17,505 nucleotides of DNA. It comes from Boseongicola sp. SB0675_bin_26 (GTDB lineage: Bacteria; Pseudomonadota; Alphaproteobacteria; Rhodobacterales; Rhodobacteraceae). Below are positions 1,173 to 17,505 of the stretch, one piece after another. The first letter of the stretch is position 1; each line of letters starts with the position of its first letter. The DNA lies in the NCBI GenBank assembly GCA_009843725.1, contig VYCX01000107.1, forward strand, positions 1 to 17,505. The letters are read 5' to 3'. The position numbers and the translations under genes were made by a program. The notes below the pieces were generated by a model that saw nothing but the letters and a program-made list of their open reading frames with translations, searched no databases and was not told the origin of the DNA.

Positions 1173-3377
1173 ATGTCGCTGCGTACCTCAGGTGGGGCCA
1201 ACGGCAAGGCCGCTTCCGACAGCCAAAGGGTGCGGACGCCTGTCATGTTGCAGATGCACGCGTCGGAATGCGGCGCCGCCTGCCTCGGCAGCGTACTGGC
1301 GTACTTCGGCAAATGGGTCCCGCTTGCCGAGTTGCGCGAGACGTGCGAGGTGAGCCGGGACGGCAGCAGTGCTGCAAGCATCGTGCGCGCCTCCCGACAC
1401 TACGGTCTTGAATGCAGCGGGCTGGGCGTGCGAGCGGATCAGCTCGGGAAGCTGCAAGTGCCCATGAGCCTGTTCTGGCAATTCAGCCATTTCGTCGTGC
1501 TCGAGGGGCATGACGGCAACAGCTTCCATCTGAATGATCCGTCCACAGGACGGCGACGCCTGTCAACAGAAGAGTTTACAAAGGGTTACAGCGGAATTGC
1601 ACTTCAATTCAAGCGCAGCTCCGACTTCAGGCCCGGCGGTGAGTGGCCAGGTCTGTTCAGGCAATTGGGCACAATTCTTGCCAACAAATGGAGCGCAGTC
1701 GCTGGAGTGGCTGCATGCGGTTTCATGTTGGCTCTGTTGACGCTCGTCATTCCCGTCTCTCTCGGTGTCTTTGTGGACGATGTGCTCGAAAGCCGGGGTT
1801 CTTGGCGCGGCATCGTGGCGGCAATGCTCGGCGGCGGTGTGCTCGTGTACATCCTGACCTATCTCAAGCACAGATTCCTCAAGCGGCTTGCAATCCGGAT
1901 TTCGGTAGCAGGATACAATCGGGGCCTGTCGCGGCTGCTTCGCCTGCCGGTCGAGTTCTTTGACCACAGGCTGCCAGGCGACTTGACGGATCGAGTGTCT
2001 TCAATCGACCGGGTCGCCAGGAACCTGACGGACCAGTTTCTGTTGCGCATTGTTGAGATGGTCATGAGTGCAGTGTTGCTCGCAGCAATGATGGTCCTTG
2101 ACTTCCGCCTTGCGCTGATTGTCGTGTTCTTGGCCCTGCTGCACGGTGTCCTGGCCCATATCCTGAACGGATTCCGAGCAGTCCGGATCCAGGCGATGAG
2201 ACGTGAGCAGGGGCTTTTGATTGGCTACGGCATGCAGATGCTGAGCAACGCCGACAGCCTGCGCCTTACGGGATCGGATGACAGGTTCTTTTCGCGCTGG
2301 ACCGGACAGCAGGCGCGCGAACTGCAAGCACGCCAGCGCGATGCCGAACTGGGGGCCGTCAGTTCCGCGCTGCCGGTCCTGATCGCGGGGTTTCGCGGTG
2401 CGGCGCTTCTGGGCGTCGGCGGGAGCCTGGTCTTGGCGGGCGAACTGACACTGGGGACGCTTGTCGGATTCTACATCTTGGCCGAGCTGTTCCTGGCGCC
2501 CTTCGGTCGCTTCATGGAGTTCGCCGACAAGCGTCAGGTCCTCGAAACAGATCTGCAGCGACTCGACGATATCCACAAGACCGCGGAAGCCCCTGCCTTC
2601 ACCCGCCGAACCCCTGACACGGAAACGATTCCAACGTTCAGGGGCCGCCTCCAGCTTGCGGGGCGGCTCGAACTGCGAAACGTTACGTTCGGCTTCACCA
2701 AGGGCCGGCCGCCCCTGATCAAGGACTTCAACCTCACGATTCATCCGGGGCAGCGCGTTGCCGTGGTCGGTCCCAGCGGATCCGGCAAGTCCACCCTGAC
2801 GCGCCTTGTGGCTGGTCTCTATCAGCCTTGGTCAGGCGACATCCTGTTCGATGGCCATCCCAGGGAGGAGATTCCCGAGGAAGTGCTCCGGCAGTCGATA
2901 TCGATGGTGGATCAGGAGGTCGTGCTCTTTTCCGCCTCCGTACGCGACAACATCACCCTGTGGAACGAGGCCGTTCCGGACGAGGCCATTTTCGCGGCTG
3001 CCCGGGACGCCCGGATTCATGACGAGATCCTGCTCAGGCCGCGCGGATACGCGACGCTCGTCGAAGAGGCGGGGGCGAATTTCAGTGGCGGGCAGCGCCA
3101 GCGGCTGGAAATCGCCCGCGCGCTGGTGGGCAACCCGACAATGCTCCTTCTGGACGAGGCTACCAGTGCGCTTGATGCAGCCACGGAGGAATTCGTCGAC
3201 GAATCCTTGCGTCGGCGCGGTGTCACGTGCCTCATCGTGGCACACCGGTTGAGCACCGTGCGTGACTGCGACGAAATTGTAGTTCTGCAAGGAGGCGTCG
3301 AAGTGCAGCGGGGCACGCATGACCAGTTGATGGCGGACCGGGACGGCACGTACCACAAGCTTGCGAGGTCGGGCTGA
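1173..3377 (+). CDS. NHLM C39 peptidase-ABC exporter (leader-cleaving)
   Basis: Inner-membrane exporter that should cut the precursor leader after a double-Gly-like site and pump the product out with ATP. The N-terminal C39 peptidase (about 20-150) keeps its catalytic set: Cys33 in SECGAAC, His106 in FSHFVVLEG and Asp122 in LNDP. Membrane segments cluster at roughly 172-200, 213-232, 296-331 and 400-440. The ATPase has Walker A GPSGSGKST (533-541), signature FSGGQRQR from 637, Walker B MLLLDEATSALD from 657 with Glu662, and the H-loop His691. The 734-residue length fits the NHLM ABC1 family. It follows the HlyD-like gene by 7 bases, and its stop overlaps the next start (TGATG at 3375-3379), so the two ABC proteins are probably translated together. 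The protein looks fully functional. Confidence 0.95.
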   Translation: MSLRTSGGANGKAASDSQRVRTPVMLQMHASECGAACLGSVLAYFGKWVPLAELRETCEVSRDGSSAASIVRASRHYGLECSGLGVRADQLGKLQVPMSLFWQFSHFVVLEGHDGNSFHLNDPSTGRRRLSTEEFTKGYSGIALQFKRSSDFRPGGEWPGLFRQLGTILANKWSAVAGVAACGFMLALLTLVIPVSLGVFVDDVLESRGSWRGIVAAMLGGGVLVYILTYLKHRFLKRLAIRISVAGYNRGLSRLLRLPVEFFDHRLPGDLTDRVSSIDRVARNLTDQFLLRIVEMVMSAVLLAAMMVLDFRLALIVVFLALLHGVLAHILNGFRAVRIQAMRREQGLLIGYGMQMLSNADSLRLTGSDDRFFSRWTGQQARELQARQRDAELGAVSSALPVLIAGFRGAALLGVGGSLVLAGELTLGTLVGFYILAELFLAPFGRFMEFADKRQVLETDLQRLDDIHKTAEAPAFTRRTPDTETIPTFRGRLQLAGRLELRNVTFGFTKGRPPLIKDFNLTIHPGQRVAVVGPSGSGKSTLTRLVAGLYQPWSGDILFDGHPREEIPEEVLRQSISMVDQEVVLFSASVRDNITLWNEAVPDEAIFAAARDARIHDEILLRPRGYATLVEEAGANFSGGQRQRLEIARALVGNPTMLLLDEATSALDAATEEFVDESLRRRGVTCLIVAHRLSTVRDCDEIVVLQGGVEVQRGTHDQLMADRDGTYHKLARSG

Positions 3378-6316
3378 TGCAGGACGCCGGGCGAAAGTAC
3401 CTATCGATTGCCGAACTTGCCGTCCGTTCGGGAGAGACCGTGCCCTGTGCCGGCAATCTTCCGGCGAAACTCGACGATTCGGACAGCGTCTGGTTCATTG
3501 AGCAGGGTGCGGTCAACCTGTTCCTTGTCGAGTTCAAGGACGGAGTGGAGACGGCCGCACCGCAACACGTTCTGTGTCGCGAGTCAGGCTGGTTGCTTCC
3601 CGGTGTCGCACCCGATGAAGGGCGCGACAGCAAGGACACCACGCTTAGCCTGATTGCCAAGGGGTCGCCGGGCACGATTTTGCGACGATTGCCGGCATCT
3701 TTGCTGTCCGAGGTTCATCCGTCGGAACTGGCGAGCCAGGTCGATACCTGGCTGACGGCCATTACTGACACTCTTTCGCGCTTTGCGAGCCGCGTTCCAA
3801 GGCCGACCGCTCTTGCCGAGCCAGGACAGAACCAGTCTTTCGCCACTGGCACGCTGTCAGTGCGACGCAGCGTGGTATGGGTGTCTGCGCCGCCGCGCGG
3901 TGCTGGCCTGTACATGGATATAGTCGATCGGGCGGAAATTGATGAAGCAGCCGGGGCGGACGAACTGTTCATTCCGCTGACCAGGACAAGCTGGTTCACC
4001 ATAATTGATGCGGCAACGCTTTCGGGGAAGTCCACGGAGGATCTGGCGCGCCAAGAAACGCTGCTGCAGGAACTCGCCACATTCCACAAGGTCGCTTTCC
4101 TTCTGGAGCGCTTCAACCGCAGGCTGGCGGTGGTCGATGACGCAAATCTCGAACGCGCAATGACAAGAAGCCGACGTACGGCCGAAATTGCGGCACGGCA
4201 ACGACTGTTCAATGTCTATGACCTGCCCGTTGACCGGGATTCCGACGTCGAGGACACGGCACTCGCGGATGCACTGCAAGTCATCGGTCGCCGCGAGGGG
4301 ATTGAATTCAAGGTGCCAAAGCGTCGGGGCCCGTCGGATTCTCCCGTCGGCCTTGTCGACATCCTTGATGCTTCAGGGGTGCGAGCGCGCCGCGTGCGGC
4401 TGCGACAGGAGGACAGTTGGTGGCGCGGCGACAGCAACGCGATGCTGGCATTTCGTGCCGGGGATGGCGAACCGGTGGCATTGCTGCCTAGCTGGTTCGG
4501 GAACTACCGGCAGATCGATCCAAAGAGCAAGCGTGGTGTTCGGGTCACAGCGGACCGTGCAAATGCGCTGATGGACGAAGCCTGGATGTTCTATCGTCCG
4601 TTTCCACCCGAAGGCGTGAAACCTGCAGACATGCTGGCAATCGCGCTGCATGGATCGGGCGCAGACGTGGTGCGGCTTGTGCTTGCCGGACTTCCTGGAG
4701 GGCTGGTCAAGCTGTTGCCAGCGCTGGCGCTTGGATTTGTCGCGACTCAGGTCGCCGCGGGAGGAAGCGCTGCAACCCTCCATGTCCTCGCCGTTGCGCT
4801 CGCGGGGTTCGGCCTGCTTGGCGCCCTGCTGCATCTGCTCCAAAGCATGGCGATGATGCGGCTCGAGGGACGCTCTCTGACGCGCCTCGAGGCCGCCCTT
4901 TGGGACCGCCTCATGCGGCTTCCGCCAAACGTGCTTCATCGCCGGCCGGCCGGCGACCTGGCAACTTCAGCGATGACATTCCAGAACTTGCGTGACGGCG
5001 TGCAAGGAGTCGTTGCCGACAGTCTGCTGTCGGTCGTCTTCCTGCTTCCGGTTTTGGGCCTGATGTTCTTCTACAATGCCACGTTGGGCATGATCGCCCT
5101 CGTCTTTGGGCTGGCTTCGCTGCTTTACACCGTGGCTCTCGGGCTGCGCCAAGTCTCGCCATACGGGGACATGATCCGTGCATCACGACACGTCGCCGGG
5201 CGGCTGTTCCAGATTGTGGGCGGTATCGCCAAATTGCGTGTGGAGGCTGCGGAAGGATCTGCATTCGCGATCTGGGCGCAGGATTATCGTGAACAGAAAC
5301 GAGCGGAACTCAAGGTGAATTCGCTCGAGGGGCATTCGCATGCGTTTGCTGCCGCGCTCCCCTTTCTTGCCGGCGGTGTCATGCTGTTTGCGGTGGCGAC
5401 AGGCGACGGGAGCGTCGGGGTGAGCGAGTTTCTCGTCGTCTATCTCGTATTCATCACCTTCCAGTCGGCAATCGCCCAGCTTGGCGAGTCATTCGGTACC
5501 ATTGCCGCTGCGCTGCCTGCGTTCGAACAGATGCGTCCACTGCTTGCGGCGGTTCCCAAGGCTGACGTTGAAGGTGAGCCGGTGGAGTTCCTTGGTGGCG
5601 ACTTATTGTTCGACCGAATTTCGTTTCGTTACGATGCCGATGGCCCGTTGATCCTCGACGATGTCTCCATTCATGCCCGTCCGGGCGAGTTCGTGGCGAT
5701 CGCCGGCGAGTCAGGATCCGGAAAGAGCACGCTGTTCCGTCTCGCGCTCGGAATCAATCAGCCAATCGCCGGCGCCGTGTATTACGACGGGCGTGACCTG
5801 AGGCACCTGAACCTGAAGCAGGTACGCCGGAAGATTGGCGTAGTGCCGCAGTCGGTCGGCCTCCACCCTAATGATCTTTGGGACAATCTGGTCAGCCATC
5901 GAGAAGGAGTGGAAGTCGAGGACGTGTGGAAGGCGATCCGGACCGCGGAAGTGGAGGACGAGATCAGGGGCATGCCGATGGGCTTGATGACCATGGTTGG
6001 CACCAGCGGCTCCGTCCTTTCCGGCGGCGAGCGACAGCGCGTCATGATCTCCCGCTCGGTGATCGGAAGCCCGAGAATGTTGCTGCTTGACGAGGCAACC
6101 AACTGGCTGGACAACGAGAACCAAGCCAACGTGATGCACAACCTTGCGGCGCTGACTTCAACGCGGCTGGTCATCGCCCACCGGTTGTCCACCCTTGAGC
6201 AGGCTGACTGCATCCACGTCCTGCAGGCCGGAAGGGTTGTGCAAAGAGGCTCGTTCAACGAACTCATGGAGGTCGATGGAGCATTCAGGGAACTGGTCAG
6301 GCGGCAAATCGCCTGA
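3377..6316 (+). CDS. NHLM second ABC transporter (ABC2 type)
   Basis: The second half of the paired NHLM exporter, expected to work with the peptidase-containing ABC protein next to it. Of its 979 residues, about 420 at the N-terminus form a soluble region without a C39 peptidase; the first ~110 residues (VWFIEQGAVNLFLVEF near 39-54) resemble a cyclic-nucleotide-binding-like beta fold, as in this family. Membrane segments lie near 433-490, 548-597 and 655-700. The ATPase has Walker A GESGSGKST (777-785), signature LSGGERQR from 881, Walker B MLLLDEATNWLD from 901 with Glu906, and His935 in the H-loop. The start ATG overlaps the previous stop by one base. After the stop there are 193 bases before the next gene, the largest break within the + strand array, so a new transcription start there is possible. 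Confidence 0.93.
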   Translation: MQDAGRKYLSIAELAVRSGETVPCAGNLPAKLDDSDSVWFIEQGAVNLFLVEFKDGVETAAPQHVLCRESGWLLPGVAPDEGRDSKDTTLSLIAKGSPGTILRRLPASLLSEVHPSELASQVDTWLTAITDTLSRFASRVPRPTALAEPGQNQSFATGTLSVRRSVVWVSAPPRGAGLYMDIVDRAEIDEAAGADELFIPLTRTSWFTIIDAATLSGKSTEDLARQETLLQELATFHKVAFLLERFNRRLAVVDDANLERAMTRSRRTAEIAARQRLFNVYDLPVDRDSDVEDTALADALQVIGRREGIEFKVPKRRGPSDSPVGLVDILDASGVRARRVRLRQEDSWWRGDSNAMLAFRAGDGEPVALLPSWFGNYRQIDPKSKRGVRVTADRANALMDEAWMFYRPFPPEGVKPADMLAIALHGSGADVVRLVLAGLPGGLVKLLPALALGFVATQVAAGGSAATLHVLAVALAGFGLLGALLHLLQSMAMMRLEGRSLTRLEAALWDRLMRLPPNVLHRRPAGDLATSAMTFQNLRDGVQGVVADSLLSVVFLLPVLGLMFFYNATLGMIALVFGLASLLYTVALGLRQVSPYGDMIRASRHVAGRLFQIVGGIAKLRVEAAEGSAFAIWAQDYREQKRAELKVNSLEGHSHAFAAALPFLAGGVMLFAVATGDGSVGVSEFLVVYLVFITFQSAIAQLGESFGTIAAALPAFEQMRPLLAAVPKADVEGEPVEFLGGDLLFDRISFRYDADGPLILDDVSIHARPGEFVAIAGESGSGKSTLFRLALGINQPIAGAVYYDGRDLRHLNLKQVRRKIGVVPQSVGLHPNDLWDNLVSHREGVEVEDVWKAIRTAEVEDEIRGMPMGLMTMVGTSGSVLSGGERQRVMISRSVIGSPRMLLLDEATNWLDNENQANVMHNLAALTSTRLVIAHRLSTLEQADCIHVLQAGRVVQRGSFNELMEVDGAFRELVRRQIA

Positions 6317-6509: not shown

Positions 6510-7811
6510 ATGAAGCGATCTATCGACGTCACGGAATTCCTTGCGGCCAAAGCGGAGGACGATTGCGACTTTCGCAATCGCTTGCTCGCGAAGCCCAGGG
6601 AAACAATTGAAGCGGAACTCGGTGTCACGCTGGCGAAAGAGCATGAGATTCACGTGCACGAGGAATCCTACGCAAAGACGCATCTGGTTCTCCCGCCGCG
6701 CAGCAAGCTCACCAAGGCCGAGAAAGAGGCGGCCAAGCATGGTGCGACGTCGCTCGAGTTTCTGCGCAAGACGATGCACGACCCGGCACCGCCCGTTCGT
6801 CCTGCAGAACCTGGAGGGAAGCGTGGCCGCAAGGGGCGTGCCGGTGGCGGCTCTCTTGCAGGCGCTGGCAGGGAGAGCATCCGCAAGGGCCTGACATTCC
6901 TGGAAAGCGCCATCGACGACAACGGCGCGTGGCGCTGCATCCGGTTCAATGTGGGCGACCCTGACATTCCCAGACATTTCGAAAGACCGCCGTTTGTTTC
7001 CGCTCTCTGCGTACTGGCACTGGAATGCTCCGGCGAAGCGCTGGCGCAAGCCATATGCAGTGCCACCCGGACATACCTTGCCGACACGATCGAATATCCA
7101 GGGCTATGGCGGTACTACCGTCATCTTCCACAGGATCTTGACAGCACTTCACTCTGCTCGCTTGTCGTTGGAGCCCACCCCTGGATTGCCTTGGGACGAA
7201 ACATTCCGCCAGTTTTGGCGAACCGGGACGAAGACGGCCGCTTCATGACTTGGGTTCTGGCAGACGGAGAACCTGATGTCGTGTCGAGATTCCGAATTGA
7301 GGCAGATCCCGTGGTCAACGCGAACGTCATCGCCTATCTCGGTGATCATCCTGCGACAAGGAATGCCCAACGTTGGCTGGAGGCCTTGATTGTCGAAGGA
7401 CGCCTTGAGGGTTCGTCCAAGTGGTATCCCGACACGGTGTCGATCTACTATGCGGTCGCTCGTGCCTTGAATCTCGCACGACCTGCATTGGAGCGGCTGC
7501 GCCCCATGCTTGCGGACCGGGTCCTGGGCCTGCGCGACGAGAACGGAGACTTTGGAAACGTCCTTCAGACCGCGCAGGCCGTATCGACGCTTCACAGGAT
7601 CGGAGCCCTCGACAGGATCGACACCGGGCGCCGGGTTGAGGAACTCATGGATTCGCAACATGAAGACGGCAGCTGGCCCGAGCTTCTCGCATTCGGTGAC
7701 CAGACGTTGAAATGGGGCGCAATTGGGCAAATTGGGCATGGCGCCGAGTCCCTGACTGCAGCGTTTTGCATCGAGGCACTGGAGCATCTCGTCGAGACCA
7801 TGCAGCCCTGA
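6510..7811 (+). CDS. NHLP leader domain fused to terpene-cyclase/prenyltransferase-like barrel
   Basis: A 433-residue two-part protein. Residues 1-75 are clearly an NHLP leader: DCDFRNRLLAKP, ELGVTL, HEIHVHEES and THLVLPP align piece by piece with the free precursor at 14659-14910. A Gly/Pro/Arg-rich linker (about 92-120) contains GG pairs at 102-103 and 112-114 that a C39 peptidase might recognise. The rest is an all-alpha domain of the squalene-cyclase/prenyltransferase repeat type, with DLDST at 209-213 in the place of the class II cyclase DxDDT acid motif and a QW-like QHEDGSW at 383-389. Known DxDD cyclases protonate terpenes; here the third acid is Ser, so chemistry is uncertain. The start is supported by GGAG eight bases upstream. 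It could be a leader-docked tailoring enzyme, an exported protein or a scaffold. The domain assignments are fairly sure, the role is not. Confidence 0.85.
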   Translation: MKRSIDVTEFLAAKAEDDCDFRNRLLAKPRETIEAELGVTLAKEHEIHVHEESYAKTHLVLPPRSKLTKAEKEAAKHGATSLEFLRKTMHDPAPPVRPAEPGGKRGRKGRAGGGSLAGAGRESIRKGLTFLESAIDDNGAWRCIRFNVGDPDIPRHFERPPFVSALCVLALECSGEALAQAICSATRTYLADTIEYPGLWRYYRHLPQDLDSTSLCSLVVGAHPWIALGRNIPPVLANRDEDGRFMTWVLADGEPDVVSRFRIEADPVVNANVIAYLGDHPATRNAQRWLEALIVEGRLEGSSKWYPDTVSIYYAVARALNLARPALERLRPMLADRVLGLRDENGDFGNVLQTAQAVSTLHRIGALDRIDTGRRVEELMDSQHEDGSWPELLAFGDQTLKWGAIGQIGHGAESLTAAFCIEALEHLVETMQP

Positions 7812-7888: not shown

Positions 7889-10288
7889 ATGCCGCAGGAT
7901 GCACTCTTGGGCAGTGACTCGGGTTCGAAGAACGCTGGCATGGGGCCGCGCATCGAGCCGTCCATTCTCAGCGCAATTCCCCACTATCTCCCGTTGGCCA
8001 TATTTCCTTTGATCGTGCTCGCCGCAATCTACGGAGGATGGTGGCTGTTGCCTCCGCTCCTTTTCATGAGCGTGGCGGGTCCGCTTGATCGCGCGCTGGG
8101 CGTGGATGGTCGCAACATGGACCCGATGAAGACACCTGAGCGTCGGCTGATCTGGCATAACCTGCCGGTCTGGGCCTGGGCGTTCCTGTGGCCACCGACG
8201 CTCATCTTCGGCATGTGGCAGATCCTTGCGGTCAACCAGTTCGCTGTTTGGGAGGCGGCGTTGCTGGTGATCATCCTGACGATGGAAGGCCAGGCCGTAT
8301 TTGTCGTTGGCCACGAACTGATTCACCGGCGCACCACTTGGGAGCGGCGGATCGGTGAATTCCTGCTCGCCTGCGCCTCCTATCCTCAATATGCCACGGA
8401 GCACGTCTACATCCATCATGCGCTTGTAGGCACACCATACGACGCGGGGTCCGCTCCAAAGGGCGAGAGTTTCTGGCGGTACTTTCCCAAGGAGGTCCTG
8501 TGCAACCTGACCAACTCCTGGAAGGTTGCGAGAGAGCGGCTGGCGCGGCGCCGGCTTCCCGCGTGGCATCACAGCAACCCGTTCTGGCGCTACGGCCTTG
8601 GTGTCGCGTTTTGGTACGGCCTGGTGTTCTGGCTGGGCGGAATCTGGGCCGTCCTCGTCTTTGCGTTCCTCGGGCTGAGCTGCGTCTTTTCGATGAAGAT
8701 CAGCAACTACTTTCAGCACTACGGCCTGCGTCGTGTCCGTCTGCCGAACGGGCGATGGGAAAAGATCATGCCGCGCCATTCCTGGAGCGCCGACTGGAAG
8801 TTCAGCAACTGGATGTTCTTCAACATGCAGCGCCATGCGGATCATCATGCCGCCGCGTCGCGCCACTATCCTCTGCTCCAGGCTCTCGGCGCCGACGAAT
8901 CGCCGGTCCTGCCGGGAACCTACGCCGACATGATGAACATCGTGCTGCGGCCGAAGCGCTGGTTCGAGAAGATGGATCCGTTGGTCGACCAGTGGCGCGA
9001 GCACTTCTATCCGGAGATTGATGACTGGAGCGCCTATGACAGTCCCGTTGCGGCCGCGCGCCCGGACGCCTTTGACGCGATCATCGAGATCTACGGCGCC
9101 TCACCGCGGCTCGCCAAGTGCATCGAGCGCAACGCGGAACTTCTCGACAACCTGCAAGACCGGGAATTTGCGGACCTCGACCTGCCCAAGGGATTCGGGC
9201 CGGACGCGGAATTCGAATCGGTGGCGCGGCGTGGCCTGACGCGCGTCTACTGGACGCATGAAATGGACATTCAGGAAATGAAGGGCCTGATTGCGGAACT
9301 GCCAACTGCGGATGCAAGGGAGAGTGCCGAAATCGTGCGGAACTGGTCGAACGACAAGGCGTTCCAGATCGGCATGCACGTCGTGCGCGGGAACCTGTCG
9401 CCAGCAGAGGCCGAGATTGCGCTTTCCAACCTTGCCGAGGCATCTGTCTCTACCGTGCTGTCCGCAGTGGTCGAGGATTTCGTCGATTGGTGCGGACCGT
9501 TCAGCAAAGGAGGGGTCGCGGCGATATTCCTGGGCGATCTGGCAAGCAGGGAAGCTTACCCCGGCGTTACGCTCGACTTGCTGCTTGTCCATGATGGCGA
9601 ACGCGCTGACGACCTTGAGCGCCTCTGCCGGCAATTCCGGGCGGCCCTGGCCGATCTGGCGCAGGGCAGCCTGTTGTTTTCCCCGGTTCCACGCAGATCC
9701 AAATCCATTCTTGCACTGGCCCAGTCGGACCTGGAAAGGCAGTTCGGGAGCCCGAAGCCTGGAGAGATCCCGGCCCTGACGCGGGCACGCTGCTTCTTCG
9801 AGTGCGGCGATCTGCAAATAGGCCGTCGGTTCAACGAAGCTCGGCGTGCGATACTGGCTGGGTGTGGCGAGGACGAAGCGCTGATCTCGAAACTTCGCGA
9901 ACGACGAAAAGGTCCTGCCGAAGCCGACGCGTCGACATTCGCCAAGGCACGCGGCGGCCTGGAAGACGTGGAGAGGGCCGCACGAATGCTCCAGTTGACG
10001 GAGCCGGGACTTGACCTCGACGACGACCCCGCACCGACCGCTGCCGCGGTGTTTGGAGCCGCCGGCGCCCAGGGCCTGGAACAGGCCGCGGGCATGTGGC
10101 GGACTCTCCAAGGCGTTTTGCGTCTCGTCGGAGAGGAGGACTTTGACGTGACCGAGGCGGGGAAGAACGTTAGATCCCTCGTTGCAAGCGCGTGCGGTCA
10201 GGAGGATTTCGCTGCGCTGAACTCAGCGGTTGCCGAAACCGCGAAAGTGTCTGCCAAAGAGATTGATGAGTTGTTGTCACATACCTGA
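7889..10288 (+). CDS. AlkB-type diiron hydroxylase fused to GlnE-like nucleotidyltransferase domain
   Basis: A 799-residue fusion. Residues about 1-370 are a membrane-bound alkane-hydroxylase/desaturase-type diiron enzyme: several hydrophobic helices plus the full His set in GHELIHRR (His142, His146), EHVYIHH (172, 176, 177), NYFQHYGL (277) and QRHADHHA (316, 319, 320). Such enzymes hydroxylate alkyl carbons using O2 and electrons from rubredoxin; no rubredoxin is present here. Residues about 391-799 resemble one half of GlnE, the glutamine synthetase adenylyltransferase: the helical stretch before the fold, LGDLASREAY...LDLLLVHD, RLCRQFRAAL, LTRARCFFECGD and ARGGLEDVE (687-695). The GSDxD metal motif reads GVTLD (559-563), losing the first Asp, and the RLRPSG loop is not recognisable, so nucleotidyl transfer is doubtful. 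AGGGGA lies six bases before the start. The substrate is unknown; the precursor peptide is my guess from context. Confidence 0.87.
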   Translation: MPQDALLGSDSGSKNAGMGPRIEPSILSAIPHYLPLAIFPLIVLAAIYGGWWLLPPLLFMSVAGPLDRALGVDGRNMDPMKTPERRLIWHNLPVWAWAFLWPPTLIFGMWQILAVNQFAVWEAALLVIILTMEGQAVFVVGHELIHRRTTWERRIGEFLLACASYPQYATEHVYIHHALVGTPYDAGSAPKGESFWRYFPKEVLCNLTNSWKVARERLARRRLPAWHHSNPFWRYGLGVAFWYGLVFWLGGIWAVLVFAFLGLSCVFSMKISNYFQHYGLRRVRLPNGRWEKIMPRHSWSADWKFSNWMFFNMQRHADHHAAASRHYPLLQALGADESPVLPGTYADMMNIVLRPKRWFEKMDPLVDQWREHFYPEIDDWSAYDSPVAAARPDAFDAIIEIYGASPRLAKCIERNAELLDNLQDREFADLDLPKGFGPDAEFESVARRGLTRVYWTHEMDIQEMKGLIAELPTADARESAEIVRNWSNDKAFQIGMHVVRGNLSPAEAEIALSNLAEASVSTVLSAVVEDFVDWCGPFSKGGVAAIFLGDLASREAYPGVTLDLLLVHDGERADDLERLCRQFRAALADLAQGSLLFSPVPRRSKSILALAQSDLERQFGSPKPGEIPALTRARCFFECGDLQIGRRFNEARRAILAGCGEDEALISKLRERRKGPAEADASTFAKARGGLEDVERAARMLQLTEPGLDLDDDPAPTAAAVFGAAGAQGLEQAAGMWRTLQGVLRLVGEEDFDVTEAGKNVRSLVASACGQEDFAALNSAVAETAKVSAKEIDELLSHT

Positions 10289-10320: not shown

Positions 10321-12639
10321 ATGTCGTCGCAGGATTCCACGATTCCCCGGAAGGGGATGCTGGCGCGAATCACGCCGGAGGACCAGGGCTCGGTCAAGCT
10401 CCCCGCGCTAGCTCCGCACCTGCAGTCGCGCATCGTCGGTGACGCGCAGGCGTTGCTTGTTTCGGAGCAGTTCAACACGCTGCTCCATGGCGAGCTGATT
10501 TGTGGCCTGTTGCCGCTGCTCGACGGTCGCCACAGTCGAGACGAGATTGTTGGGCGCCTTGAGAACTCGTGGTCCGCCAATGAAGTTCATGCGGCCATGG
10601 AATCGCTTGCCGCCAAAGGCTATGTCGTGTCTGCCGATCATGGCATGGAAAGATCCCGGGCTGCCTACTGGTCATCGCTTGGTGCTTCGCCGCGTTGGGC
10701 CGAACGCCGGCTGTCAGAAGCGCGTATCGCGATTGAAGGTGACGACGGACGGCTGACCCGGCATTTGAACGATCAGGGCGCTAACGTGACGACCAGCACC
10801 CCTATGCTCATGGTCGTTGTGTGCGACGACTTCCTTGCATCGAGCCATGGAGAGGTGAACCGGCGCCAAATTGAGGCGGACACGCCGTGGATTCTCGTGA
10901 GACCCCTCGGCATGGAGGCACTGTTTGGCCCCATCTTTCGCGCCGACGGGCATGGCCCCTGTTGGGATTGCCTGGCTTGCCGTCTGCGCAGCCACCAGGA
11001 AGTTCACAATTTCCTGCGTAACGTTGCTGGTGACGAGGCGGCATTCAAGCCGTTCGTTGCCCAACCGGCCGTACTGGAGGCGCTGTATGGGCTGATCGCT
11101 GCGGAAATCGTCAAATGGCTGGTGCTCGGAGAATCCGCGCCAATCCACGAACACGTAATCACGATGAATGTCGGCACGTTTGCAAGTTCGAAGCATCGGG
11201 TCGTGCGCCGCCCGCAATGCTTCGCCTGTGGCGACGAAGAACTGAATCGTCCGGACCGAAAGCCGTCGCCCTTGCAACTGCAGGCGAGTCCCAAGGCTCA
11301 TCGCGGCAGCGGCGGCGCCCGGAGCGTGGCTCCGGGCGTCACGTTCGCAAAGTACAGGCACCTGGTGAACCCGGTAAGCGGCGTCGTGACCTGGCTGTCA
11401 CGCATTTCCGACGATTCCGATTCATGGCTGCATGTCGATTGGGCCGGAAGCAATCTCGGCGTGAGAAGCCGAACCTTGAGCTCGCTCCGGCGCAGTCTGC
11501 GCAGCAAGAGCGCCGGCAAGGGAAGCACGCGCGAGCAATCCAGGGTCAGCGCGCTCTGCGAGGCGATCGAGCGTTACTCCGGCATCTGTCAAGGAGACGA
11601 GATCCGCGTTCGCAGGCGGCTCACCGAATTCCTCGCGGGCGATGAGGCAATTCATCCAAACGATGCGCAGCTGTTCAGCGACAGGCAGCTTGACGACGCC
11701 AGGAGCATCAACGCCGAGGGCCATCCCTACAACATCGTCCCGCCGCGTCTCGATCCCGACGCAGAGATCGACTGGACGCCGGTGTGGTCGCTCTCGCAAT
11801 GCCGGCATCGCTATCTTCCGACATCGATGCTCTACAGCATGGCGCCGGAACAGCGAGGTCCGATGGATCTGGTCGCCGATTCAAACGGATGCGCTGCGGG
11901 CAATACTCTCGAAGAGGCAATCCTGCAGGGCTTCTATGAACTGGCAGAGCGCGACGCCTTTGCCATCTGGTGGTACAACCGGCTGCAGGTTCCGGCGGTC
12001 GACCTCGACAGTTTCGATGACGAGTACCTCGCTGCGGCCTCGGACCATTATGCCCGATGCGGCAGGGAAATTTGGGTGCTCGATATCACCTCGGACATCA
12101 AGATTCCCACATTCGTCGCGCTTTCACGAAGACCTAACGCGAAGAGCGAGGACATCATTTATGGTGCCGGCACCCACGCCGATGCACGTGTTGCCGCACT
12201 GCGCGCGGTATGCGAACTGAACCAGTGCCTAAGCTGGCTGCCGCGGCCCGGCCAGGCTGATGGCCGGCCCATGATCGACGACCCGTTGGCTCTTTGGTGG
12301 TGGAAAACCGCTCGTCTTGCCGAATGTGGCTGGCTGGCGCCGGCGACAGCCGAACCGCACCGCGAGGCTGCCGACTATCCGGCGACTGAAACTGCAGACG
12401 CGCGCGACGATGTGGACATGTGCCGCGCACTCGTCGAGGCCAAGGGCATGGAGTTCCTTGTCCTGGACCAGACCCGGCCTGACGTCGGCATGCCCGTCGC
12501 ACGCGTCATCGTTCCGGGCATGCGTCATTTCTGGGCGCGGTTCGCACCCGGACGCCTGTATGATGTGCCCGTAAGAATGGGGTGGCGCACGCACCGCATA
12601 GCTGAAGCCGACCTGAATCCAGCGCCGGTAATCGCTTGA
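10321..12639 (+). CDS. Fused TOMM cyclodehydratase (RRE + E1-like + YcaO)
   Basis: Enzyme expected to convert Cys (or Ser/Thr) in the precursor core to azolines, using ATP. Residues about 22-100 look like the leader-binding RRE (PqqD-like winged helix). An E1/ThiF-like C-protein region follows, with a zinc tetrad Cys214/Cys217 (CWDC) and Cys300/Cys303 (CFAC). From about 340 onward is a YcaO (SagD-like) domain with the nucleotide-binding Glu-rich motifs SALCEAIERYSG (410-421) and EEAILQGFYELAERD (531-545). The C-terminus ends NPAPVIA, close to but not the full PxPxP tail common in azoline-forming YcaOs. It starts 32 bases after the hydroxylase fusion with a weak GGA binding site, and a stop followed by GAGGAGA leads into the next gene. 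No SagB/McbC oxidase is nearby, so the product may stay at the thiazoline level. Confidence 0.94.
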   Translation: MSSQDSTIPRKGMLARITPEDQGSVKLPALAPHLQSRIVGDAQALLVSEQFNTLLHGELICGLLPLLDGRHSRDEIVGRLENSWSANEVHAAMESLAAKGYVVSADHGMERSRAAYWSSLGASPRWAERRLSEARIAIEGDDGRLTRHLNDQGANVTTSTPMLMVVVCDDFLASSHGEVNRRQIEADTPWILVRPLGMEALFGPIFRADGHGPCWDCLACRLRSHQEVHNFLRNVAGDEAAFKPFVAQPAVLEALYGLIAAEIVKWLVLGESAPIHEHVITMNVGTFASSKHRVVRRPQCFACGDEELNRPDRKPSPLQLQASPKAHRGSGGARSVAPGVTFAKYRHLVNPVSGVVTWLSRISDDSDSWLHVDWAGSNLGVRSRTLSSLRRSLRSKSAGKGSTREQSRVSALCEAIERYSGICQGDEIRVRRRLTEFLAGDEAIHPNDAQLFSDRQLDDARSINAEGHPYNIVPPRLDPDAEIDWTPVWSLSQCRHRYLPTSMLYSMAPEQRGPMDLVADSNGCAAGNTLEEAILQGFYELAERDAFAIWWYNRLQVPAVDLDSFDDEYLAAASDHYARCGREIWVLDITSDIKIPTFVALSRRPNAKSEDIIYGAGTHADARVAALRAVCELNQCLSWLPRPGQADGRPMIDDPLALWWWKTARLAECGWLAPATAEPHREAADYPATETADARDDVDMCRALVEAKGMEFLVLDQTRPDVGMPVARVIVPGMRHFWARFAPGRLYDVPVRMGWRTHRIAEADLNPAPVIA

Positions 12640-12648
12640 GGAGAACGC

Positions 12649-13767
12649 ATGCACATTGACCAAGCCGTCACGCTGACACAGGACAGGCTTGCCCAGGAGG
12701 GCAGCACCATGGGTGAGTTGCTCGGACATTTTCGACGCAGCACTTCGCGAAGCCTCATTGGAGATCCTGAATGGGAGCGCATACTTGCGTGCGCCGAGCA
12801 ACTGCCCATCACGATGGGCGCCCTGCCGTTCGGATTTGAACTTCCGTTGCAATCGTGCCGTCCCGAGGCGGATTTCGGTGTTTCCCTGGCAAGCGGAACC
12901 GCTACGGCGGCGCTCTTCGAGCAGCGCGCACGACGCAACAAGAGCGATGAGGTTGCACGGGCAATCACGAAGCTGTTCGGGCAGATGGATGAAGAAGACT
13001 CGTCCCTGCGCGAAATTGCCGGCCGCAAGCTGATGCTGGAATTTGACATCGGCTCGGCCAAGGAGAAAGAACGCTCGATGCCGGGAATGTTCCTGAGACC
13101 GGGCGAGCGTCCGATCCTGGGCGCCTGCGGACAGGCCAATGATGTCGTTGCCGTGGTTGATGCGCTTGTGTCCTGCGTCGGCTGGGAGTTGAAAGATGCA
13201 GAGAGGAAGCATGTGGAGCGTGCCTATCTGGCGCAGCCGGAAGACACGCGCATGGATTCCTTCGGCATCTTTCCTTCGCGCTCACGGTCAATCCGCTTGG
13301 CAATCATGGGCTTCAAGTCGCGACAGGAACTCGGATCCTATCTTGGCAACTTGGGCTGGCCAGGCCAGTTCCAGGCTGTCGAGTCCGTGATTGCTCGAAT
13401 CAGCGAACGCGTGAACATCGTCAGGACCGGAGTGAATGTCGACATAGCGGAACAGGGCGTCGGTCCGACATTGGGCCTCACGCTCATCGTCAAGCAAAGG
13501 TACACGAAGGACTCGCGCTATTGGCTCGACGGCCTGACCGATTGGGACCCTTTCCTGAATGCTCTGGGCCACGAGGACCTTGTCGTGCCTGACAAGCTCG
13601 CGGCGCTTGCCGACTGGGTATCGAAACCAAAAACGCTCTTCGGGAAGTCGGGACAGTTCATACTGCTGCGTGGGATCCACCACATCAAGCTTGTCATCTC
13701 CGACGATCAGCTCAAGGAGGCAAAGGCCTACGTGTTCTTGGTCCTATCAGCAGCGGCATCCACGTAG
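12649..13767 (+). CDS. Unrecognised RiPP-cluster protein, 372 residues
   Basis: I do not recognise this protein. It is certainly a gene: a strong GAGGAGA site precedes the ATG, it begins 9 bases after the cyclodehydratase stop, and its composition matches the neighbours. It is predicted soluble, with no signal peptide or membrane helix. Visible landmarks are LPFGFELPL near 61-69, GRKLMLEFDIG at 125-135, MPGMFLRPGERP near 145-156, and a C-terminal part with alternating beta-like and charged stretches. I see no flavin, Rossmann, Walker, radical-SAM, zinc or protease motif, and no nitroreductase pattern that would make it the missing SagB-type dehydrogenase. Its position, last in the array and coupled to the cyclodehydratase, suggests it handles the same peptide as a tailoring enzyme or partner protein. 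Confidence 0.8.
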   Translation: MHIDQAVTLTQDRLAQEGSTMGELLGHFRRSTSRSLIGDPEWERILACAEQLPITMGALPFGFELPLQSCRPEADFGVSLASGTATAALFEQRARRNKSDEVARAITKLFGQMDEEDSSLREIAGRKLMLEFDIGSAKEKERSMPGMFLRPGERPILGACGQANDVVAVVDALVSCVGWELKDAERKHVERAYLAQPEDTRMDSFGIFPSRSRSIRLAIMGFKSRQELGSYLGNLGWPGQFQAVESVIARISERVNIVRTGVNVDIAEQGVGPTLGLTLIVKQRYTKDSRYWLDGLTDWDPFLNALGHEDLVVPDKLAALADWVSKPKTLFGKSGQFILLRGIHHIKLVISDDQLKEAKAYVFLVLSAAAST

Positions 13768-14658: not shown

Positions 14659-14910
14659 CTACCAGCAGCAGCAAAGTCCGGCGGAAATGGCTTCGAGCTG
14701 CTCTTCGGTGATGTTCGGATCTGGAGGTAGAGCAAGATGCACTGTCTGCATGTCGCTCTCATGAACCTCAATAGTCATCGAGTCCGGAATCGTAATGCCC
14801 AATTCACCACTGATGGTGGACTTGGGGTCTGAAAGAAGCTGCTGCCTGAAGTCCGAATCTACCGCGGACTTGTCGACAATCTGCTTCAGCATTTCGTCTC
14901 CACTTCTCAT
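14659..14910 (-). CDS. NHLP-type precursor peptide with LCCCW core
   Basis: An 83-residue RiPP precursor. Residues about 7-76 are an NHLP (nitrile hydratase alpha-like) leader: VDSDFRQQLLSDP, ELGITIPDSMTIEVHES, TVHLALPP and ITEEQLEAI. The leader ends in Ala77-Gly78, a double-Gly-like C39 cleavage site, leaving only Leu-Cys-Cys-Cys-Trp (79-83) as core; the three Cys codons are TGC repeats and the stop is TAG. The cyclodehydratase on the other strand would cyclise the cysteines. Two starts are plausible: ATG at 14908-14910 with AGAGGT five bases upstream, or ATG at 14890-14892 (Met7) with GGAG five bases upstream. The N-terminal part of the fused protein at 6510-7811 is a clear relative. NHLP leader identity is secure; cleavage point and modification are inferred. 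Confidence 0.92.
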   Translation of the reverse strand: MRSGDEMLKQIVDKSAVDSDFRQQLLSDPKSTISGELGITIPDSMTIEVHESDMQTVHLALPPDPNITEEQLEAISAGLCCCW

Positions 14911-15267: not shown

Positions 15268-17505
15268 TCACGCAGGTGTCACGCTGTGCAGCGCGCCAGC
15301 CGGCTCACCGCCGCGCCCGTATAGCCAGGCACCAAGCGCGGGCAGCAGCATGACCGCGCCCGCCATGTTCACGAGGAACATGAACATCAGCACCGTGCCC
15401 ATGTCGGCCTGAAACTGGAGCGGTGCCGCAACCCATGTCGCAACACCTGCGGCGAGGGTGAGGCCGGTCAGCATGACTCCCGCGCCAGCCGTCCGCAGTG
15501 CGCGCTCGTAGGCCTCCGCGAAGGGGACGCCGTCGCGCAGGTGGTTTCGTATCCGCCCGAAGATGTAGATTCCGTAGTCGACGCCGACCCCAGCGCCGAG
15601 CGCCACCACGGGCAGGGTGGACACCTTGAGCCCGATCCCGATCAGGGCCATGAGCGCATAGGCAAGCACCGAGACGGCGGCGAGCGGCAGGACGATGCAA
15701 AGAACGGAACGAATCGAACGGAAAGCAAGCAGAACCAGAAGGATGACGGCGGCATAGACATACCCGACTATCGGAAACTGTGCTGCATCCACCTCCTCGT
15801 TGGTAGCGGCCATCACGCCGACATTGCTGGCGGCCAGCTTGAAGGAGATCGGGCCGCCCGCGTTTGCGGTGTCAAAGGACTTCACAGCGTTCACGACCCG
15901 CTGGATCGTTTCTGCCCTGTGGTCCTCGGTATATATGTGCACTGGCATGACGCTGCAGTCGGAATTGAGGAGGCCGCTGGACGTCGGGATGGGGGAAACC
16001 GACTGAACCAGGCTGTAGCGGTTGCGCGGCAGGGTCTGCCACTTGAGATTGCCTTCGTTCCAGGCCGCGTTCAGCCGCCGTGCGGCGCCTGCGAGCCCGG
16101 CAACCGACACGACGCCCTCGACGTTGCTCATGGTCCACTCGAAGTCGTCGAGCGTCCGCATCGTCTCGAAGTCGATGCAGCCTTCGGTTGCCGTCTCGGC
16201 AATGACGGTAAGCACGTCTACGCCAATGTCGAACCGCTCACCGACCACGTCCGCGTCCCTGTTGTAGACGGAATCAGGCCGGAGTTCGGGCACGCCCCGC
16301 TGTTCATCGCCGATCCGCACATCGACCGCGTAGGTGGCGCCGAGCAGGACAAGTCCTGCCCACGCGCAGATGATGGCAGCTGCGGGTTTCCGGTGGGCAG
16401 CTCGCACGAGGACCGAACGGACCGCATGTGGCAGCGCTCTCGGAGGACGAGGAGGCTTCCTGGCAAAGGACAGCAAGATGGGCAGCAGCCCGAGATTGGT
16501 CAGCACAATAGTCGCCACGCCGAGCCCTGCCGCGACCGACACTTCCTGGATTGCCTGCACCTGGATGAGCGCGATCGTCCCGAATCCCGCCGCGTCTGAG
16601 GCGAGCGCCGCGGTCCCCGGACGAAGAAGGCGCCGGAAACCAGCCTTCGCGGCGTCGAGCGCCGCAACGCCGGTGGTCGATGCTTCGTGGGTCGCGCCGA
16701 CCACCTGGACGCCGTGGCTTACGCCGATGGCGAATATCAGGAAGGGCACGAGGATGGACAGCGGATCGATCCCGTATCCGAGCAGGCGGAGCAGTCCAAG
16801 CTGCCAGATCACGGCAAGCAGCGAGCAGCCGAGCAGCGCGACGGTTGCACCGGCCGACCTTGTGTACGCAAGGACCAGAAGGGTCGCGACCAGGAACGCG
16901 ACCGCGAAGAATGCCGCCACCGTCCCTGCGCCGTCCGCGATGTCGCCAACTGCCTTGGCGAAGCCGATGATGTGCACGTCGAGCAAGCCGTCGGCAGCTT
17001 CCAGAGTCTGTTCCCGAATCCGCTCGAGCTCGTGGGCGACCTCCACGTAGTCAAGACGCTCGCCGGTGTCGGGATGGAACTCCTGCAGTCTTGCTGCAAC
17101 GATGGCGCCGCTGAGATCGTTGGCGACCAGACGCCCGACCAGACCCGCCTTGACGATGTTCTCCCGCAAGCGCTGGAAGCCGGCCTCGTCCGGAACGAAG
17201 TCGGACGGCAGGACGTTGCCGCCGGCGATTCCGTCTTCGACAACCTCAACGAACCTCACGTTCGGCGTCAGGATCGAGAATACCTGTGTCCGATCAACGC
17301 CGGGAAGGAAGAACACGGCATCCGTCGCGCTGCGCAGCGCTTCCAGATACTCGGGCGTGAACATTTCGCCGTCGCGCGCGATGAGCGCAAGCACGATGCG
17401 GTCCGCGCCTCCGAATTCCTCGCGGTGATCGAGGAACGTCTTCATGTAGGGATGCTGAAGAGGTGCCAGCTTGGTGAAGCCTGCATCGATGCGCAACTGG
17501 GACGC
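15268..17505 (-). CDS. RND/MMPL-type exporter, 5' end outside the window
   Basis: Inner-membrane proton-driven exporter of the RND superfamily, closest in feel to the HAE3/MMPL proteins that move hydrophobic compounds. About 745 codons are present; the frame is open through the window edge (the last residues read ASQLRIDAGF), so the first membrane helix and true start lie beyond 17505. The order is typical: a periplasmic loop (IDAGFTKLAPLQHPYMKTFL, FGGADRIVLALI), a first helix bundle including FAIGVSHGVQVVG, a second periplasmic loop, and a second bundle with GAGVGVDYGIYIFGR, whose Asp is the usual proton-relay residue. It ends in TGA at 15268-15270. It shares direction with the precursor gene but is separated from it by 357 bases of repeat-like DNA. 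It might be an unrelated exporter or a second route for a lipophilic product. Confidence 0.9.
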   Translation of the reverse strand, partial: ASQLRIDAGFTKLAPLQHPYMKTFLDHREEFGGADRIVLALIARDGEMFTPEYLEALRSATDAVFFLPGVDRTQVFSILTPNVRFVEVVEDGIAGGNVLPSDFVPDEAGFQRLRENIVKAGLVGRLVANDLSGAIVAARLQEFHPDTGERLDYVEVAHELERIREQTLEAADGLLDVHIIGFAKAVGDIADGAGTVAAFFAVAFLVATLLVLAYTRSAGATVALLGCSLLAVIWQLGLLRLLGYGIDPLSILVPFLIFAIGVSHGVQVVGATHEASTTGVAALDAAKAGFRRLLRPGTAALASDAAGFGTIALIQVQAIQEVSVAAGLGVATIVLTNLGLLPILLSFARKPPRPPRALPHAVRSVLVRAAHRKPAAAIICAWAGLVLLGATYAVDVRIGDEQRGVPELRPDSVYNRDADVVGERFDIGVDVLTVIAETATEGCIDFETMRTLDDFEWTMSNVEGVVSVAGLAGAARRLNAAWNEGNLKWQTLPRNRYSLVQSVSPIPTSSGLLNSDCSVMPVHIYTEDHRAETIQRVVNAVKSFDTANAGGPISFKLAASNVGVMAATNEEVDAAQFPIVGYVYAAVILLVLLAFRSIRSVLCIVLPLAAVSVLAYALMALIGIGLKVSTLPVVALGAGVGVDYGIYIFGRIRNHLRDGVPFAEAYERALRTAGAGVMLTGLTLAAGVATWVAAPLQFQADMGTVLMFMFLVNMAGAVMLLPALGAWLYGRGGEPAGALHSVTPA

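Follow-up and report, generated by a model that had tools for sequence, protein, structure and literature searches.

A putative core gene of the sponge-microbiome srp proteusin cluster encodes an AlkB-type diiron oxygenase fused to a degenerate GlnE half

The srp proteusin cluster of sponge microbiomes encodes the precursor peptide SrpE together with SrpC and the brominase SrpI (PMC10858898, PMC10286304, PMC12455567, PMC12615548). In the available portions of these publications SrpE carries a LCCCW core and a NLTEEQL motif at residues 66-72, and Lys84, Tyr102 and Tyr110 are the residues given for SrpI. In the part of its publication that is available, the mpp brominated lanthipeptide cluster (PMC11791876) resembles srp in that genes annotated as brominase, prenyltransferase, terpene synthase and oxygenase surround that of a leader peptide, a likeness of annotation rather than of sequence, yet differs in its Nif11 leader and LanM chemistry, with no mention there of a fusion to the adenylyltransferase GlnE such as the one reported here. 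The stretch analyzed, hereafter the window, comprises 17,505 nucleotides of contig VYCX01000107.1 from Boseongicola sp. SB0675_bin_26. A single forward-strand frame at positions 7889-10288 encodes in it a 799-residue protein that joins an AlkB-type membrane diiron oxygenase to a degenerate GlnE half.

In order to assess the distribution of the fusion, a profile of its second half was compared with contigs of one genome per species, yielding 129 loci, of which 80 were kept; together with the window and loci L032 and L033 these form the 83 loci considered below. The fused frame occurs in 82 of them; 77 of these frames are of full length and five start at the border of the retrieved sequence, L089 being the sole locus without an intact one. 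The original prediction had described one uninterrupted 799-codon frame, which holds for the window, nearly all relatives likewise having a single fused frame, and had allowed that relatives might carry the halves as separate genes, an arrangement the survey did not recover. An artefact, whereby a lost stop or an assembly error joined two genes in the window genome, has no support in the window itself. L089 and several partial homologues on long contigs (e.g. P0201, P0203, P0209), perhaps broken or mis-assembled copies, are what could be cited in its favor, and it is already refuted by the 82 single frames and by the grouping of the fused AlkB halves. A branch with support 100 separates the 57 halves sampled from 21 standalone AlkBs, in a tree built with a quick method from a narrow standalone sample with long branches.

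By NCBI ranks, the 80 kept loci belong to Pseudomonadota (49), Acidobacteriota (9), Nitrospirota (6), Latescibacterota (5), Nitrospinota (3), Gemmatimonadota (3), Myxococcota (2) and Binatota (1), with two lacking a phylum. Given the single frame in nearly all loci, the eight named phyla and the single clade of sampled AlkB halves, the fusion appears to be old and stable. Phylum labels switch at least nine times on the AlkB tree and most fusions in other phyla share 67-75% identity with the window protein over its length, suggesting horizontal spread. Nitrospirota paralogues L100 and L107 are 51-52% identical to the window protein, and on one contig of a Nitrospira metagenome-assembled genome (WTGX01000017.1) a canonical and a divergent fusion cluster lie side by side (L083, L100). 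None of the 63 pattern-matching stretches on viral contigs with a matching profile encodes a relative. Also, none of 51 matching plasmid records covers 80% of the fusion query, the best 20 of them covering either the AlkB or the GlnE part.

The AlkB half (7889-9043, plus strand) comprises residues 1-385, which are assigned to this family by both sequence and predicted fold, with the AlkB alignment extending over residues 22-386. As originally predicted, the nine-histidine diiron centre is intact (residues 142, 146, 172, 176, 177, 277, 316, 319 and 320, spanning 8312-8848 on the plus strand), each metal-binding His being kept in at least 76 of the 77 full-length fusions. Across the same alignment, 99 of 331 AlkB-core positions are conserved at 97% or more. 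Compared with the AlkB alkane 1-monooxygenase structures (PDB 8f6t, 8sbb), the fusion is set apart by its GlnE half, its peptide-cluster setting and the lack of a rubredoxin found in the genus. A search for standalone halves considered proteins of about half the fusion length, and many of its best 120 of 143 matches are cut fusions that retain part of the GlnE domain. Among the matches listed, the nearest ones of full AlkB length whose name or shape marks them as separate AlkBs are 38-48% identical (e.g. P0211, P0206, P0224) and the nearest separate relatives bear the name alkane 1-monooxygenase; P0143 (78%) and P0189 (56%) lie on contigs of at most 7 kb and may be cut fusions. Long AlkB frames in two genomes (G047, G042) were discarded as candidates, their extra length lying upstream of AlkB and the frames ending after it.

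Profile and structure comparisons indicate that the second half (9044-10285, plus strand, residues 386-799) derives from the C-terminal, adenylyltransferase half of GlnE, which is the closer match in 77 of 77 fusions. Fold and distant homology are shared with the GlnE C-terminal half (PDB 3k7d) throughout, and the predicted structure keeps the fold over the whole region. In contrast to GlnE, the protein has lost catalytic acidic residues, contains a single half rather than linked removase and transferase halves, and is joined to a membrane enzyme. An apparent further GlnE fusion (G021:C53) proved to be an ordinary two-domain GlnE. The GlnE resemblance and the replacement of the catalytic motif had both been anticipated; the former is strong by profile as well as by structure and the latter extends to the whole family. 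While 20 of 20 GlnE proteins keep both the SDxD motif and the third Asp unchanged, the window has GVTLD at this position (9563-9577, plus strand, residues 559-563), and the first catalytic Asp is kept in none of the 77 full-length fusions, being replaced by A (45), E (11), G (7), S (6), P (4), T (2), R (1) or M (1). At the second position Asp (43), Glu (20) and Asn (8) are found. The third is never Asp, in a column near gaps where the alignment is less sure, and the nucleotide-site residues DxRLRPSG are gone. Judged from the alignment, the catalytic site is destroyed across the family.

Conservation within this half is uneven. In the helical lead-in (9053-9433, plus strand, residues 389-515) 50 of 127 positions are conserved at 97% or more, whereas the nucleotidyltransferase segment has 5 such positions of 95 and the region after it 12 of 189, a pattern indicative of strong selection on the lead-in, which may form a docking surface, and of much weaker selection on the former catalytic part. 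GlnE is an enzyme responsive to PII and glutamine, and retention of the fold along the whole half would suit a sensor with surviving affinity for glutamine, ATP or PII that couples the oxygenase to nitrogen status. However, the acidic residues at the three metal-binding positions vary or have been lost, DxRLRPSG has disappeared and conservation sits in the lead-in, outside the nucleotidyltransferase core, making this role very unlikely.

The surroundings of the fusion agree with the predicted context of a ribosomally synthesized and post-translationally modified peptide cluster with NHLM and TOMM genes. A YcaO cyclodehydratase with a leader-binding domain of the SrpC type (10321-12639, plus strand, 9.5e-96) follows the fusion, and an 83-residue SrpE-type NHLP precursor ending in AGLCCCW is encoded at 14659-14910 on the minus strand. 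As in published srp, the window cluster combines a LCCCW core, the LxxxxL region at residues 66-72, a YcaO protein and a wide spread; its precursor reads NITEEQL from residue 66, where two relatives have NLTEEQL. Precursor endings (n = 64) are LCCCW in 59 cases, RCCC in two, and LSCCW, LCCCGF and LTCCGC in one each. The Lys84/Tyr102/Tyr110 spacing of the Trp brominase recurs in 34 of 41 long members of the neighboring Trp_halogenase family, 16 of them at the exact published numbers. The SrpI brominase relative of this genome lies outside the window, as a 73% relative of the halogenase family on another contig (G000:C257). The core, the residue-66 motif, the YcaO protein and a halogenase with SrpI spacing together place the window within the srp cluster, an assignment made through these published features rather than by direct comparison with published srp sequences. 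The fusion qualifies as a core gene of the sponge proteusin cluster.

Across the 83 loci the YcaO family occurs in 80, adjoining the fusion in 71 of 82, which answers the suggestion made at the outset that TOMM company be surveyed. The precursor of about 83 residues is found in 64 loci, the ABC pair in 58, the halogenase in 45 and the HlyD-like protein in 39. For the 52 loci in which the fusion has 6 kb or more of flanking sequence on either side, the counts are 51 (YcaO), 46 (precursor), 43 (ABC) and 38 (halogenase). Two further neighbors recur. One is an unannotated 372-residue protein (12649-13767, plus strand) whose predicted fold is that of the ABBA/DMATS aromatic prenyltransferases. Fold search alone gave a match, as none was found in Pfam or NCBIfam at E 0.1 or in a PDB profile search. 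Its family is present in 69 of the 83 loci and in 50 of the 52 well-flanked ones. The other (6510-7811, plus strand) fuses an NHLP leader domain to a class II terpene-cyclase-like domain, suggesting that such leader domains may be employed to dock enzymes as well as to lead precursors. It matches drimenol synthase by profile (3.7e-7), its DLDST aligning with DLDTT of that enzyme, and the catalytic Asp motif (DxDD, DxDTT type) reads DLDST or DLDSS in 59 of 60 members. This NHLP-cyclase occurs in 60 of 83 loci and in 45 of the 52, and adjoins the fusion in 56 of 82. Neither protein, nor the fusion, came up in word searches of the available srp text, where the precursor, the YcaO protein and the brominase are described.

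Of 101 relatives, nine genomes (G000-G007, G036) carry the fusion, and the same nine contain a strong SrpE match (best E <1e-20) and the 12649-13767 family (E <1e-10). Eight of the nine belong to one genus, so that perhaps two independent cases are represented. Weaker SrpE matches (1.7e-13 to 8.6e-4) in eight further genomes are probably nitrile hydratases or other NHLP proteins.

We propose that the fusion is a dedicated srp enzyme that oxidizes a hydrophobic tail carried by the peptide, its dead GlnE half docking the carrier or a partner, a reading to which we assign a probability of roughly 44%. The SrpE core would be prenylated by the prenyltransferase-fold neighbor and the prenyl chain would enter the AlkB membrane tunnel, where the diiron centre and O2 would epoxidize, hydroxylate or desaturate it. 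Cyclization of the tail by the NHLP-cyclase may then follow, in what is the presumed order of steps. Having lost adenylyl transfer, the cytosolic GlnE half could act as a platform on which the carrier peptide or a partner enzyme is kept above the active site in the membrane. In indole diterpene biosynthesis, for example that of paxilline, a prenyltransferase, an epoxidase and a cyclase provide the same three activities as proposed here, acting however on a small-molecule acceptor and with a flavin epoxidase, instead of a ribosomal peptide and a diiron enzyme.

Judging by the gene neighborhood, a prenyl or terpenoid tail is more probable as the substrate than either a free lipid or the side chains of the peptide; the original prediction did not consider such a tail. 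Oxidation of the peptide core itself, either of thiazolines to thiazoles or by residue hydroxylation, would have the AlkB half replace SagB, the flavin azoline oxidase used by other clusters, with the GlnE half docking the leader. Consistent with this are the adjacency of YcaO and the fusion, the Cys run that nearly all core variants share while Leu and Trp vary, and the finding of SagB above cut-off in none of eight genomes of the genus (one sub-cut-off match, in G004), which keeps thiazoline oxidation alive. Yet AlkB enzymes work on alkyl chains in a hydrophobic membrane tunnel, and core oxidation would leave the prenyltransferase-fold and cyclase-like genes without explanation; we regard it as somewhat unlikely. 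Less likely again is a route in which a free lipid or terpenoid is hydroxylated first and then attached to the peptide or exported with it, the GlnE half binding another cluster protein. The alkane 1-monooxygenase names among the relatives listed and the MMPL and LolA-like neighbors fit such a route, whereas the strict co-occurrence with a peptide precursor does not, nor does the lack of an acyltransferase or acyl-CoA ligase among the recurrent neighbor families, part of which are annotated.

Several observations weigh against peptide-borne tail oxidation. The prenyltransferase assignment comes from a predicted fold at about 10% identity, and some fusion loci, divergent ones among them, have no member of that family nearby; in five such genomes (L095, L103, L106, L111, L112) a strong member lies elsewhere in three, a weak one (2.0e-28) in one and none in the last. 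The AlkB structure model is poor at residues 295-340, where three of the nine His fall. Rubredoxin (PF00301), the partner of classical rubredoxin-dependent alkane hydroxylases, was found in none of the eight genomes of the genus, which are drafts (the window genome being 92% complete). It was detected in only 8 of 61 relatives although many of these carry standalone AlkBs, and the electron donor of the fusion is thus probably another protein. The neighbor at 6510-7811 is cyclase-like by profile and motif rather than by a modelled fold. Also, the divergent clusters L032, L100, L107 and L102 have no NHLP-cyclase in the fetched stretch, so cyclization would not be universal.

Cores without Trp (RCCC in L032, L033 and L148) still accompany the fusion, and ABBA enzymes that prenylate Arg are known in cyanobactins. 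In its 20 kb, L032 retains the prenyltransferase family and has no NHLP-cyclase or brominase, carrying instead an amine oxidase, a CMAS methyltransferase and an MPAB/Lcp oxygenase. More SrpE-like peptides are encoded in genome G005 (L149, L150, L151), two ending in DGSCI and one in a frame that runs on past AGLCCRWQ; these are perhaps decayed or differently processed copies. In the window genome, further prenyltransferase-family and halogenase paralogues lie on other contigs (C98, C553, C10; including L152 and L153), as do NHLP precursors ending in SSSY and DIDTW, perhaps marking related clusters without the fusion.

Export genes complete the window, all on the plus strand except the last: an NHLM HlyD-like secretion protein (173-1165, 3.2e-8), an NHLM ABC1 exporter with C39 peptidase (1173-3377), an NHLM ABC2 exporter (3377-6316) and an MMPL-family exporter (15268-17496, minus strand), the last found in 23 of 83 loci and 18 of the 52 well-flanked ones and presumably linked to the pathway. 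The HlyD-like frame has 330 residues and its relatives are mostly shorter (median 185), which puts the probable start several hundred bases downstream of 173. Beside the cluster, LolA-like, weakly DUF1302-like and Rieske ring-hydroxylase families occur in 15, 14 and 10 loci, respectively (L057, L097, L074 and others), which may point to a lipid-like product and to additional oxidation.

Literature searches of titles and abstract starts returned no publication on an AlkB-GlnE fusion, their coverage leaving out the 2021 srp paper by Nguyen et al. in JACS, in which the cluster is reportedly widespread in sponges; a search combining NHLP, sponge and YcaO likewise found no paper. The sponge origin of the relatives is presumed from one record title (Spongia_Bin9), dataset names and the srp papers.

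A gene family that spans eight named phyla thus unites, unusually, a membrane oxygenase and a dead half of a regulatory enzyme. Its biosynthetic cluster is widespread in sponge microbiomes, and the available srp text does not give the final product. Two unannotated neighbors yield a concrete proposal for that product, through prenylation, oxidation and cyclization. It is possible, and we advance it tentatively, that the srp products form a new molecular class, ribosomal peptide meroterpenoids that bear bromine and thiazolines, with a precursor-bound terpenoid tail installed by an ABBA-fold enzyme, oxidized by the diiron enzyme whose dead GlnE half docks the carrier, and cyclized by the NHLP-cyclase. 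On the reading proposed here, the GlnE half would illustrate how a signalling enzyme can become a scaffold.
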